Assembly: GCF_030732095.1 (NCBI RefSeq)
Contig: NZ_JAVAMQ010000004.1
Coordinates: 248,001-312,000, forward strand
Direction of reading: 5' to 3'
Source of the DNA: Paracoccus spongiarum
GTDB lineage: Bacteria > Pseudomonadota > Alphaproteobacteria > Rhodobacterales > Rhodobacteraceae
Length of the DNA: 64,000 nt
Part shown: positions 19,131 through 36,760 of the stretch, in pieces
Position numbering within the stretch: the stretch's first letter is position 1
Layout: every line of letters starts with the position of its first letter
Translations under genes and position numbers: made by a program
Notes under the pieces: generated by a model
Told to the model about the DNA's origin: nothing
Seen by the model: only the letters and a program-made list of their open reading frames with translations
Databases searched by the model: none

Positions 19131-20618
19131 ATGGATCGGGGGCGTCGCATGCTGGATATCCTGAAATCATCGGTGGCGGCGCTGGCGCTGCTGGCCGGTG
19201 CCGCCGAGGCGCAGGACGGGATCACCCTCGGGATGGTCCTCGAGCCGCCGAACCTCGACCCGACCGGCGGCGCCGCCGCGGCCATCGACGAGATCGTCTA
19301 TGCCAATCTCTTCGAGGGGCTGACCCGCTTTGGCCCGGATGGAAGCATCCTGCCCGCGCTGGCCGCAAGCTGGGAGGCGCAGGACGAGGGCAGGGTCTAT
19401 GTCTTCCGCCTGCAGCCAGGCGTCACCTTCCATGACGGTGCCGCCTTCGACGCCGAGGATGTGGTCTTCTCGCTGGATCGCGCGCGCGCGGACGATTCGA
19501 CCAATGCCCAGAAGGTCCTGTTCGAGGGCATCGAGACGGTCGAAGCGGTCGATCCGCAGACCGTGCGCGTGACGCTGCGGGCGGCGGACGGCAATTTTCC
19601 CTTCAAGATGGCCTGGGGTGACGCGGTGATGGTCGACGCGGCCAGCGCCGCCGACCTGGCCACGAAGCCGGTCGGCACCGGACCGTTCCGCTTCGGGCAA
19701 TGGGTGCAGGGCGACCGGGTCGTGCTGGAGGCCTTTGACGGCTACTGGGGCGAAAAGCCCGCCCTGAAGACCGCCACCTTCCGTTTCATCAGCGACCCCA
19801 CGGCCGCCTTCGCGGCGATGATGGCGGGCGATGTCGATGCCTTCCCGAACTTTCCCGCGCCCGAGGTGCTGCCGCAGTTCGAGGCCGATCCGCGCTTCAG
19901 CGTCATCATCGGCACGACCGAGGGCGAGACGATCCTGGCGATGAACAACAGCCGCCCGCCGCTGGACGACCTGCGGGTCCGCAAGGCGATTGCCCATGCG
20001 ATCAACCGGCAGGACATCATCGAGGGGGCGATGTTCGGCTATGGCACGCCGATCGGCAGCCATTTCGCGCCGCATCACCCCGATTACGTCGATCTCGTCG
20101 ACCGCTCGGCCTTCGATCCGGCGCTGGCCAAGCAGGCGCTGGCCGAGGCGGGGGCGGGGCCGATCCGGCTGCGGCTGGCGTTGCCGCCGCCCGCCTATGC
20201 CCGCCGCGGCGGCGAGATCATCGCGGCGCAGCTGCGCGGGGTGGGCATCGAGACCGAGATCACCAACATGGAATGGGCGCAGTGGCTGGAGACGGTGTTC
20301 AAGGGCGGCGATTTCGACCTGACCATCGTCAGCCATACCGAGCCGCTGGACATCGATATCTATGCCCGGCCCGATTACTATTTCAGATACGCCCGGCCCG
20401 ACTTCGTCGCGCTGATGGACCGGCTGAAATCCGCGACCGCGCCCGACCAGCGCAGCGCCCTGTATCGCGAGGCCCAGCAGATGATTGCCGAGGATTACGT
20501 CAACGCCTTCCTGTTCCAACTGGCCAAGACGGGCGTGGCCGATGCGCGGATCGAGGGGCTGTGGCAGAACGCGCCGACCCAGGCCAACGACCTGACCGGG
20601 GTGCGCTGGACCGAATGA
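19131..20618 (+). CDS. ABC transporter substrate-binding protein, family 5 (peptide type)
   Basis: 495 residues from ATG at 19131 (GAGG four bases upstream); ATG at 19149 is also plausible and gives a cleaner signal peptide ending AGAAEA. The mature protein begins QDGITLGMVLEPPNLDPTGG, and VYVFRLQPGVTFHDGAAFDA is the family 5 signature. AIAHAINRQDIIEG lies in the third lobe. Such proteins bind oligopeptides, nickel complexes or opines in the periplasm. No permease or ATPase genes are adjacent, so it is an orphan binding protein here. Confidence 0.88.
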   Translation: MDRGRRMLDILKSSVAALALLAGAAEAQDGITLGMVLEPPNLDPTGGAAAAIDEIVYANLFEGLTRFGPDGSILPALAASWEAQDEGRVYVFRLQPGVTFHDGAAFDAEDVVFSLDRARADDSTNAQKVLFEGIETVEAVDPQTVRVTLRAADGNFPFKMAWGDAVMVDAASAADLATKPVGTGPFRFGQWVQGDRVVLEAFDGYWGEKPALKTATFRFISDPTAAFAAMMAGDVDAFPNFPAPEVLPQFEADPRFSVIIGTTEGETILAMNNSRPPLDDLRVRKAIAHAINRQDIIEGAMFGYGTPIGSHFAPHHPDYVDLVDRSAFDPALAKQALAEAGAGPIRLRLALPPPAYARRGGEIIAAQLRGVGIETEITNMEWAQWLETVFKGGDFDLTIVSHTEPLDIDIYARPDYYFRYARPDFVALMDRLKSATAPDQRSALYREAQQMIAEDYVNAFLFQLAKTGVADARIEGLWQNAPTQANDLTGVRWTE

Positions 20619-20656
20619 GGGCGCGGCGCCGGCCCCCCGGCCTGCGCCACGACCCG

Positions 20657-21946
20657 TCAGCCGGAGGCGCCGACCCCGCGCGACTTGGCGCGCAGGTCGA
20701 AGACCCCGTAGGCCGCGACCACGAGGAAACACAGCGCCGGCACGAGATACGAGGTGGCGGCCCCCCGCGCATCCATCACCGCGCCATGCACCAGCGGCAT
20801 CAGCGCGCCGCCAAGGATGGCCATGACCAGCCCGGCCGCGCCGAACTTGGTGTCCTCACCGAGGCCATGCAGCGCGATCCCGTAGATCGTCGGGAACATC
20901 AGCGACAGGCAGGCCGACAGCGCGACCACCGCCCAGACCCCCGCCATGTTCGGGCTGGACACCGCGAACAGGCACAGCGCCGTGCCCGCCAGCGCCATCG
21001 CCGCCAGCAGCATCGCCGGGCGCAGGAAGCCCATCAGCCAGACCATCACGAAGCGCGAGATCAGGAACACGATCAGGCTGGCCTGCAGATACCAGCCCGC
21101 CTGCGCCTCGTTGCCGCCGATGGCGGCCATGACGTACTGGATGGTGAAGGTCCAGACGCAGGTCTGCGCGGCCACGTTGAAGAACTGCGCGACGACGCCG
21201 AAGACATAGTGGCGATTGGCCAGAAGCCGGCGCAGCGTGGCGGTGAAATGCACCTCGTGGTCGGTCTCCAGCCGGACCTCGGCCTCGGTCGGCATGCGGA
21301 TCAGCGCGATGGCGATCCAGATCGCCAGAAGCACGAAGGCAAAGCCGACATAGGGGACCATCACGGCCTGCAATTCGCCCTGCTGCACCGCGCGCAGCGC
21401 CTCGGGTGCCATCGCGGCGCGTTCCTCGGCCGAGGCGGTGTTCAGCCGGGGCAGGATCAGCGTGGCGGCCAGCAGCACGCCGATATTGGTGCCGACCGGG
21501 TTGAACGCCTGCGCGAAGTTCAGCCGGCGGGTGGCGTTCGCCTCGGGTCCCATCGCGATCACGAAGGGGTTGGCCGAGGTTTCAAGGATCGACAGCCCGC
21601 CCGCCAGCAGGAACAGCGCGGCGAGAAAGAAGCCGAAGGTCATCGCCTACGCGGCGGGGTAGAACATGAACGCGCCGCAGATCGCGCAGCCCAGCCCGAC
21701 CCGCACGCCGGTCTTGTAGGAAAAGCGTCGGTTGATGAAGGCCGCGGGCAGGGCCAGCAGGAAATAGGCCCCGTAATAACAGAACTGCACGAAGGACGCC
21801 TGAAGCGTGCTCATCGAGAAGATCCGCGAAAACACCTGCACCAGCGGATCGGTCATGTTCGCCGCGATTCCCCAGGCGGCAAAGCAGGTTACCAGGATCA
21901 CGAAGGGCAGCAACATCCCCTCATGCACAAAACGACGTTCCGACAT
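20657..21946 (-). pseudogene. FucP-type sugar:H+ symporter interrupted by one amber codon
   Basis: Two open segments in the same frame together make a full-length major-facilitator permease of the FucP (L-fucose:H+ symporter) group, about 429 codons. The 5' part (ATG 21946, with GGAGGAG upstream) ends GAFMFYPAA, then TAG at 21649-21647. The frame resumes AMTFGFFLAALFLLAGG and continues with the family signature ETSANPFV and the NFAQAFNPVGTNIG loop. No other stop or frameshift is seen, and the second part keeps clean transmembrane segments. In E. coli FucP I recall a Glu at this place. The lesion is therefore recent, a sequencing error, or read through. Nothing in the flanks indicates which sugar is carried. 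Confidence 0.85.
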
Positions 21947-22084: not shown

Positions 22085-23632
<1,548 letters not shown>

Positions 23633-23657
23633 GGGATGTCGCTCCTGTTCCGTCGGT

Positions 23658-24092
23658 TCACGGCACGATGGTGACCGGCACCGGCGCAACCTGCGCCAGG
23701 GTGCCTGCGACCGATCCGAAGATGCGCGCGGAAAGGCCGGAATGCCCCATCCGCCCGATGAAGATCAGGTCCGCGCCCTGTTCCTTCGCTATCTCGCACA
23801 ATGTCTCGGCGATATGGCCGTATCTCAGCACGGTCGAGACGGTCAGACCGGTAGTGCGGGTCTGCTCGGCGACCGGCGCGATGACGACCGCCTCGGCCCG
23901 TTCCAGTTCGTCCTGCCGACGCTGGTGTCGTTCCTCGATCTCGTCGGGCGTCAGGAAACTGTAGGGAGACCATTCAAGCACATGGGCGAGAATGATCTGG
24001 TCATCATTGGTTTTCGCGATTCCGACCGCGAAATCCAGGGCGCGTCGTGACGTGTCGCTGCCGTCATATCCGACGACGATCTTTCTTGGCAT
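23658..24092 (-). CDS. Universal stress protein (UspA family)
   Basis: 144 residues, a single Usp domain. It begins KIVVGYDGSDTSRRALDFA, with the Asp that contacts adenine. The ATP-binding signature G-x2-G-x9-G-S is complete in GRMGHSGLSARIFGS. Usp proteins of this ATP-binding type help survival in starvation or low energy. GGGGGAAGG precedes the ATG. It is upstream of, and probably co-transcribed with, the alanine symporter. It is divergent from the leuA leader over about 200 bases. Confidence 0.93.
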   Translation of the reverse strand: MPRKIVVGYDGSDTSRRALDFAVGIAKTNDDQIILAHVLEWSPYSFLTPDEIEERHQRRQDELERAEAVVIAPVAEQTRTTGLTVSTVLRYGHIAETLCEIAKEQGADLIFIGRMGHSGLSARIFGSVAGTLAQVAPVPVTIVP

Positions 24093-35657: not shown

Positions 35658-35690
35658 GTCCTGCCGAAGACCCCGTTCCGTCGCGCCGTC

Positions 35691-36044
35691 TTACCGCTGG
35701 TTCGCGTCCAGCATCATCCGCAGCATCCGCTCTTCCGATTCGTCGTCGGCGGGCTTGGGACGATCCATCTCGGCGCCCAGCAGCAGCGCCATCGCATCCT
35801 CTTCGGGTTCGTCGACCTCGATCTGGGTCTGGGTCGATTCGATCATCCGCTCGCGCAGGTCATCGACCGGCTGCGTCTCGTCGGCGATCTCGCGCAGGGC
35901 CACGACCGGATTCTTGTCGTTGTCGCGGTCGACCGTGGCCTGGCTGCCGGCGGCGATCTCGCGGGCCCGATGCGCGGCCAGCATCACCAGATCAAAGCGG
36001 TTGGGAACCTTGTCGACGCAATCTTCAACCGTAACGCGGGCCAT
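35691..36044 (-). CDS. rpoZ: RNA polymerase omega subunit
   Basis: 117 residues. It starts [20 protein letters not shown] and continues [14 protein letters not shown], the omega signature that wraps the beta' tail. [13 protein letters not shown] ends the conserved part. The acidic C-terminal half is typical of alphaproteobacterial omegas. Omega helps beta' assembly and forms part of a ppGpp site on RNA polymerase, which fits its place before rel. AGGTGAG precedes the start. Confidence 0.96.
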
Positions 36045-36151
36045 GTCTCACCTGTGCAGATTCGAATCGGGTATCGGGGGCGAAACCGGAGTTCTGGTGG
36101 CCAGACCGGGAAATGTCAAGGAAAAGGCAAGGCGTCGCCGGGTCGGCCCGG

Positions 36152-36760
36152 TCATCGGGTCGGACCCTGCGCGAGACCTTGCTGCGCGGTCAACGGCGAC
36201 ATGCCGGCCAGCCCCTGCGCACCGAGGTCCGCCAGCATCCCGGCCACGCTGCGCCCGGTCAGCGGATGGCACCAGTGCGGCGCGATCTCGGCCAGCGGCG
36301 CCAGCACGAAGCCGCGATCCTGAAGCCTCGGATGCGGCAGGATCAGCCGGTCCGGCGCCTCGACGGCCTGCCGTGCGGGCGGCAATGCGACCCAGGCGCG
36401 CTGCGTCGCGGAATCGGGGCGCACCAGATTCCCGACGGCGATCAGGTCCAGGTCCAGCACCCGCGCCGACCAGCGCCCGGTGCCGCGATCGCGTCCCATC
36501 CGCGCCTCGATCGCGTGCAGCCGCACCAGCAGGGCCTCGGGTGCGAGCCGCGACCGGACAAGCACCACCGCATTGGCGTAATCGGGGCCGGAGCCCGGAG
36601 GATAAGCCGGGGTTTGCCAGATCCGGCTGGCGGCGCTTATTGAAATATCCTGTTCAGCGTGCAGAATGGACAGTGCTGAACCAAGCGTTTCACTCGCGCT
36701 GCCGTCAGCCGATGGCAGGTTCGCGCCAAGGGCGACTATCGATAAGGACAACCTATCCAT
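36152..36760 (-). CDS. folK: 6-Hydroxymethyl-7,8-dihydropterin pyrophosphokinase
   Basis: 202 residues. It transfers pyrophosphate from ATP to the pterin in folate synthesis. Diagnostic blocks are IVALGANLPS at the N-terminus, TPAYPPGSGPDYANAVVLV (the ANA pterin loop), and RGTGRWSARVLDLDLIAVG, whose DLDL Asps bind Mg2+. LPHPRLQDRGFVLAPLAEIA follows. It is slightly longer than the E. coli enzyme at the C-terminus. It is first of the folK-rpoZ-rel group and divergent from the NYN gene. Confidence 0.95.
   Translation of the reverse strand: MDRLSLSIVALGANLPSADGSASETLGSALSILHAEQDISISAASRIWQTPAYPPGSGPDYANAVVLVRSRLAPEALLVRLHAIEARMGRDRGTGRWSARVLDLDLIAVGNLVRPDSATQRAWVALPPARQAVEAPDRLILPHPRLQDRGFVLAPLAEIAPHWCHPLTGRSVAGMLADLGAQGLAGMSPLTAQQGLAQGPTR

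Follow-up and report, generated by a model that had tools for sequence, protein, structure and literature searches.

An in-frame amber codon in an otherwise intact FucP-type permease gene of Paracoccus spongiarum

The interrupted permease gene and its neighbours

The DNA analysed here, called the window, is a stretch of 64,000 nucleotides from Paracoccus spongiarum (assembly GCF_030732095.1, contig NZ_JAVAMQ010000004.1, positions 248,001 to 312,000 of the forward strand), and all positions below count from its first letter unless a relative's locus is named. The genome comprises 3.93 Mb in 93 contigs, with 99.93% completeness and 0.03 contamination. On the minus strand of the window lies a fucP-type permease gene that an earlier reading made from the letters alone (the sequence-only reading) had described as interrupted by one TAG codon. 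Position, frame and codon count proved correct: 99 codons precede the TAG and 329 follow it, after which the frame closes at a TGA (Table 1). The neighbours of fucP are a gene that we take to be leuA, a universal stress protein gene (usp), an alanine symporter gene and a solute-binding protein gene.

Table 1 Features at the fucP locus (window positions)
Feature	Position	Strand	Remarks
fucP-type MFS permease gene	20657..21946	-	TIGR00885 413.9 bits; PDB 3o7q E 9.7e-80; 429 codons including the single in-frame TAG
Amber codon TAG, codon 100 of fucP	21647..21649 (read 21649..21647)	-	In frame
N-terminal fucP fragment, 99 codons	21650..21946	-	ATG start; GGAGGAG-like ribosome site upstream
Downstream fucP frame, 328 aa	20657..21643	-	First ATG one codon past the TAG
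Na+:alanine symporter-family gene, upstream of fucP	22085..23689	-	PF01235; neighbour in all six syntenic named relatives
Solute-binding protein family 5 gene, convergent with fucP	19131..20618	+	PF00496; neighbour in four of the six syntenic named relatives

The read-through protein, by which we mean the fucP translation with X placed at the TAG, matches the NCBIfam fucP family TIGR00885 over residues 12-414 with a score above the cut-off of 280.4 bits, and E. coli FucP (3o7q) aligns colinearly with residues 11-416, the alignment staying ungapped at the TAG site. The FucP-type assignment made by the sequence-only reading is therefore upheld. A second fucP equivalog, PRK10133, missed its cut-off (282.2 versus 427). 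Identity of the read-through protein to the two nearest relatives within the genus, Paracoccus sp. R12_2 (G120) and P. maritimus YLB-12 (G096), is 90% and 89%. Because the matches span nearly the whole length, with no gap at the TAG in the 3o7q alignment, and because of this identity to the relatives, the two frames are parts of a single gene carrying one in-frame stop rather than two chance open reading frames (ORFs). The TAG site falls between two hydrophobic runs taken as TM3 and TM4, and most likely lies in the helix 3-4 loop, a placement made from the sequence together with the usual fold of the superfamily.

The flanking order of leuA, usp and alanine symporter is common to six of the nine named Paracoccus loci. 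In the remaining three (L030, L052 and L056) the permease sits amid other genes. Since its position is common to the nearest relatives, fucP of the window is a vertically inherited orthologue and not a fresh import. The gap between fucP and the solute-binding protein gene (20619-20656) measures 38 bases here versus about 355-365 in the two nearest relatives, the wider gap of which holds a 59-codon ORF (L028 6434-6613; L029 6444-6623).

Conservation of the gene and age of the lesion

At E <= 1e-100 the permease was matched in 25 of 125 Paracoccus genomes, these being the window genome, one with a decayed copy (G073) and 23 with intact copies. A TGA was reported within two of the 23 intact copies and was taken as the natural gene end: one lies 4 residues short of where the alignment ends, whereas the other copy aligns without a stop to residue 424. 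In a codon table based on tblastn none of the 106 other rows (97 distinct sequences, nine pairs of rows being the same sequence under two locus ids) has a stop at the TAG column, and these rows include the distant paralogues L008 and L009 as well as the decayed copy (L027). The stop interrupts a gene that is intact in relatives, and it is private to the window genome. The 23 intact Paracoccus orthologues have Gln (21) or His (2) at this column. Over the 106 rows Gln (47) and Lys (25) are followed by His, Ile, Leu, Val, Tyr, Arg and others, and the position is therefore variable. The Met encoded by the ATG past the TAG is, in turn, present in all 23 intact orthologues and in 100 of the 106 rows.

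No further decay was found in fucP, and constraint is similar on the two sides of the TAG, in agreement with the earlier statement that no other lesion was to be seen. Against the nearest relative the dN/dS of fucP is 0.137 (0.088 before the TAG and 0.154 after it), and a like difference between the two segments (0.115 and 0.226) is given by a pair of intact relatives, L028 and L031. The corresponding values for five neighbouring genes are 0.093, 0.178, 0.189, 0.217 and 0.295. Synonymous and nonsynonymous codon changes unique to the window number 24 and 9 before the TAG and 68 and 30 after it (Fisher P 0.83). For the whole gene the counts of 92 and 39 differ only from those of usp, usp being the less constrained (P 0.0002), with P of 0.07 to 0.35 for the other four neighbours. 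Of the positions that do not vary among the other 23 orthologues (228 in all), the window copy differs at two, both of them before the TAG, and the same leave-one-out count across the 23 relatives runs from 0 to 7.

We also estimated the share of the branch spent under neutrality for nine combinations of segment and assumed starting value. The crude upper 95% bounds were 0.04 to 0.19; a share of zero fits seven of the nine combinations, and the lower bound is 0.002 in the other two. Past the lesion there is no clear excess of nonsynonymous changes of the kind by which relaxed constraint marks a pseudogene. Such an outcome is expected if the lesion is recent, and it hence limits the age of the lesion without excluding a pseudogene. 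Because constraint is similar before and after the TAG, the lesion is young, or not really disabling, or not real; an old pseudogene was rejected given that constraint is intact.

A comparison of the window with roughly 100 kb of sequence from either of the two nearest relatives flagged 6 ORFs of 38 for one and 5 of 35 for the other, over the part of the window up to about 38.6 kb, where gene matches end. We judged fucP to be the sole flagged ORF in which a well-conserved gene carries a lesion on its sense strand. For the rest we favoured antisense shadows or stops that precede the start, frames having been read for one of them (35658-36578). Matches to the syntenic stretches of the relatives cease there, next to a gene for tRNA-Leu(TAA), even though the stretches compared should extend past this place. 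The part of the window beyond (38671-64000) holds a catalase gene, an arginase-family gene, PhoX, a choline-sulfatase-like gene and RapZ, and the end of the matches could be a rearrangement or the boundary of an island at the tRNA.

Amber codons in the window genome

The sequence-only reading had offered three origins for the TAG, namely a recent pseudogene, a sequencing error or a recoded stop, and the last of these fails on the content of the genome. A tRNA family search returned 39 tRNAs, among which ARAGORN found no CUA anticodon. This list is incomplete (tRNA-Tyr and tRNA-Ile are absent from it) and the search was thus not exhaustive, so searches with anticodon-loop patterns were added. 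The CUA pattern hit one place, where it matches a tRNA-Arg(TCT) gene with the register off by one base. That gene (genome contig C19, 15884-15926) is a trap for pattern-based suppressor searches. The control pattern with GUA hit four places, these being tRNA-Tyr(GTA), a tRNA-Ser and a tRNA-Thr out of register, and one place without a tRNA according to ARAGORN. As the control recovered the tRNA-Tyr(GTA) absent from the family search, the pattern can find a tRNA that the search had missed. It presumes T33, R37, a GTTCRA T-loop and an encoded CCA, and a suppressor lacking any one of these would escape it.

The PylS family scored 29.2 bits in the genome, below its cut-off of 178.15. It also scores below the cut-off in 12 of 14 control genomes, and the match is taken as a distant synthetase relative. 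Release factor RF1 is present (470.8 bits versus a cut-off of 423.25). Ten of the 37 window ORFs kept with a relative end in TAG, one being the N-terminal fragment of fucP. Of these ten, six stop at the same place as the relative, and in three of the six the relative has TGA or TAA. As these six genes end at TAG where their relatives end, TAG is an ordinary terminator in the window genome. Folding of the RNA at the stop gave z-scores of -0.51, 1.05 and 0.63 (two window stretches and one relative), the first being that of the fold downstream of the TAG, and an RNA element at the stop was rejected on these unremarkable values. Nothing beyond the open frame downstream speaks for a TAG recoded genome-wide or as pyrrolysine, and against it stand RF1, the PylS score, the lack of a CUA tRNA in the family, ARAGORN and pattern searches, and the normal TAG terminators. 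Hence, recoding was rejected, and we regard its probability as negligible.

Origin of the stop and comparison with known systems

We consider it likely that the TAG marks a recent nonsense inactivation of an accessory FucP-type permease. A FucP-type sugar:H+ symporter gene that was functional and had been inherited vertically in this Paracoccus species would have lost its function very recently, when one nonsense substitution hit a codon that is Gln in most Paracoccus relatives. We infer that ribosomes would stop at the TAG with RF1 to leave a three-helix fragment unable to transport, and that the strain would have lost its FucP-type permease. Such a loss would be tolerated because the permease is accessory within the genus. 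The copy in G073 (L027, 1519-2746, minus strand) carries a frameshift and two in-frame stops, and its decay is independent of the window TAG. With two copies broken separately, some Paracoccus lineages seem able to do without the permease.

Of the three origins offered by the sequence-only reading, the recent pseudogene is thus the best supported, with a private TAG and purifying selection on both sides of it. The call nevertheless hangs on a base seen in one assembly of one strain, and a like lack of decay is to be expected from an assembly error as well as from a stop that is tolerated and partly read through. The TAG would on the former reading be an artefact of base calling, assembly or culture and the gene of the organism intact, and the absence of other decay in fucP, the confinement of the stop to one assembly and the lack of another clear sense-strand lesion in the comparable part of the window are all as that reading would have it. 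However, the assembly is good by the measures given above, and isolated substitution errors are uncommon in assemblies of good quality. Moreover, mutation of a single base to give a stop is commonplace (of the 428 fucP codons, 71 are one step away from one), and we hold an artefact to be unlikely. The TAG may also be a polymorphism within the species.

A real stop could instead be partly suppressed, near-cognate readthrough giving a low dose of permease from a short-lived allele kept under selection. Codons past the TAG are constrained like those before it. The site tolerates many residues, Gln, Lys, His, Ile, Leu, Val and Tyr among them, and whichever one readthrough inserted might thus be acceptable; the excerpted text of PMC7918605 further argues that dN/dS often stays below 1 in bacterial genes with in-frame stops, and that most such stops are short-lived. 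Recent mutation nevertheless accounts for identical data, no suppressor tRNA was found in the searches above, the fold downstream of the TAG is not unusual and no stop is seen at the site in any other row. We therefore find readthrough improbable, although low-level readthrough, if shown, would offer a clean case from nature of a transporter whose dose is set by a stop codon. Less probable again is a split permease, in which translation stops at the TAG and re-initiates at the ATG directly past the codon that follows it, the three-helix and nine-helix pieces then assembling in the membrane. The break does lie between two hydrophobic runs, and split membrane proteins can assemble, as far as the excerpted text of PMC3464245 goes. 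Yet the Met of this ATG is so widely conserved that it is not new, inspection by eye found no clear ribosome-binding site before it, and again the stop is matched in no other row. A combined proposal, that the TAG is a real and tolerated attenuator at which low readthrough or re-initiation at the adjacent ATG in a permissive helix 3-4 loop gives a reduced dose of working or split permease under selection, seems to us very doubtful, standing between these two in probability. The locus is ordinary biology: the TAG is most likely an everyday recent loss-of-function mutation or a sequencing error and not a new reading of the genetic code. The finding bears chiefly on annotation: the strain should be annotated as probably without a functional FucP-type permease, and the TAG should not be presented as a case of recoding.

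'FucP-type' is for the Paracoccus permease a family name, and L-fucose would be no more than a possible substrate. The fucI gene was found in none of the 125 genus genomes, and the literature collection searched gave no paper on a fucose permease in Paracoccus. An RbsD/FucU-family gene is present in the window genome, and the co-occurrence of this family with the permease is weak (18 of 25 genomes with the permease versus 50 of 100 without it, by hand count; Fisher P 0.07). The neighbours were rejected as a physiological cue, the syntenic Paracoccus loci holding housekeeping or unrelated transport genes.

The closest known transporter is E. coli FucP, which the window permease resembles in family score and in colinearity over nearly the whole length. 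The alignment with 3o7q is ungapped through residue 122, and both carboxylates aligned with Asp46 and with Glu135, the latter presumably of functional importance in E. coli FucP, are kept at residues 33 and 122 (an offset of 13). The window copy differs in the TAG at codon 100 and in that no sugar-catabolic gene was found beside it. Asp46 of FucP is, in the excerpted text of PMC4882079, the putative proton-binding residue. As to the lesion, in-frame stops in bacterial genes are described as common in the excerpted text of PMC7918605. The window gene resembles the single-nonsense alleles of that study in having one stop with constrained flanks and in belonging to carbohydrate transport and metabolism, one of its larger categories. 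The focus there, in the same excerpts, is on stops common to two or more species, whereas the window TAG is found in a single genome. With that difference, the window TAG fits the ordinary class that those excerpts describe.
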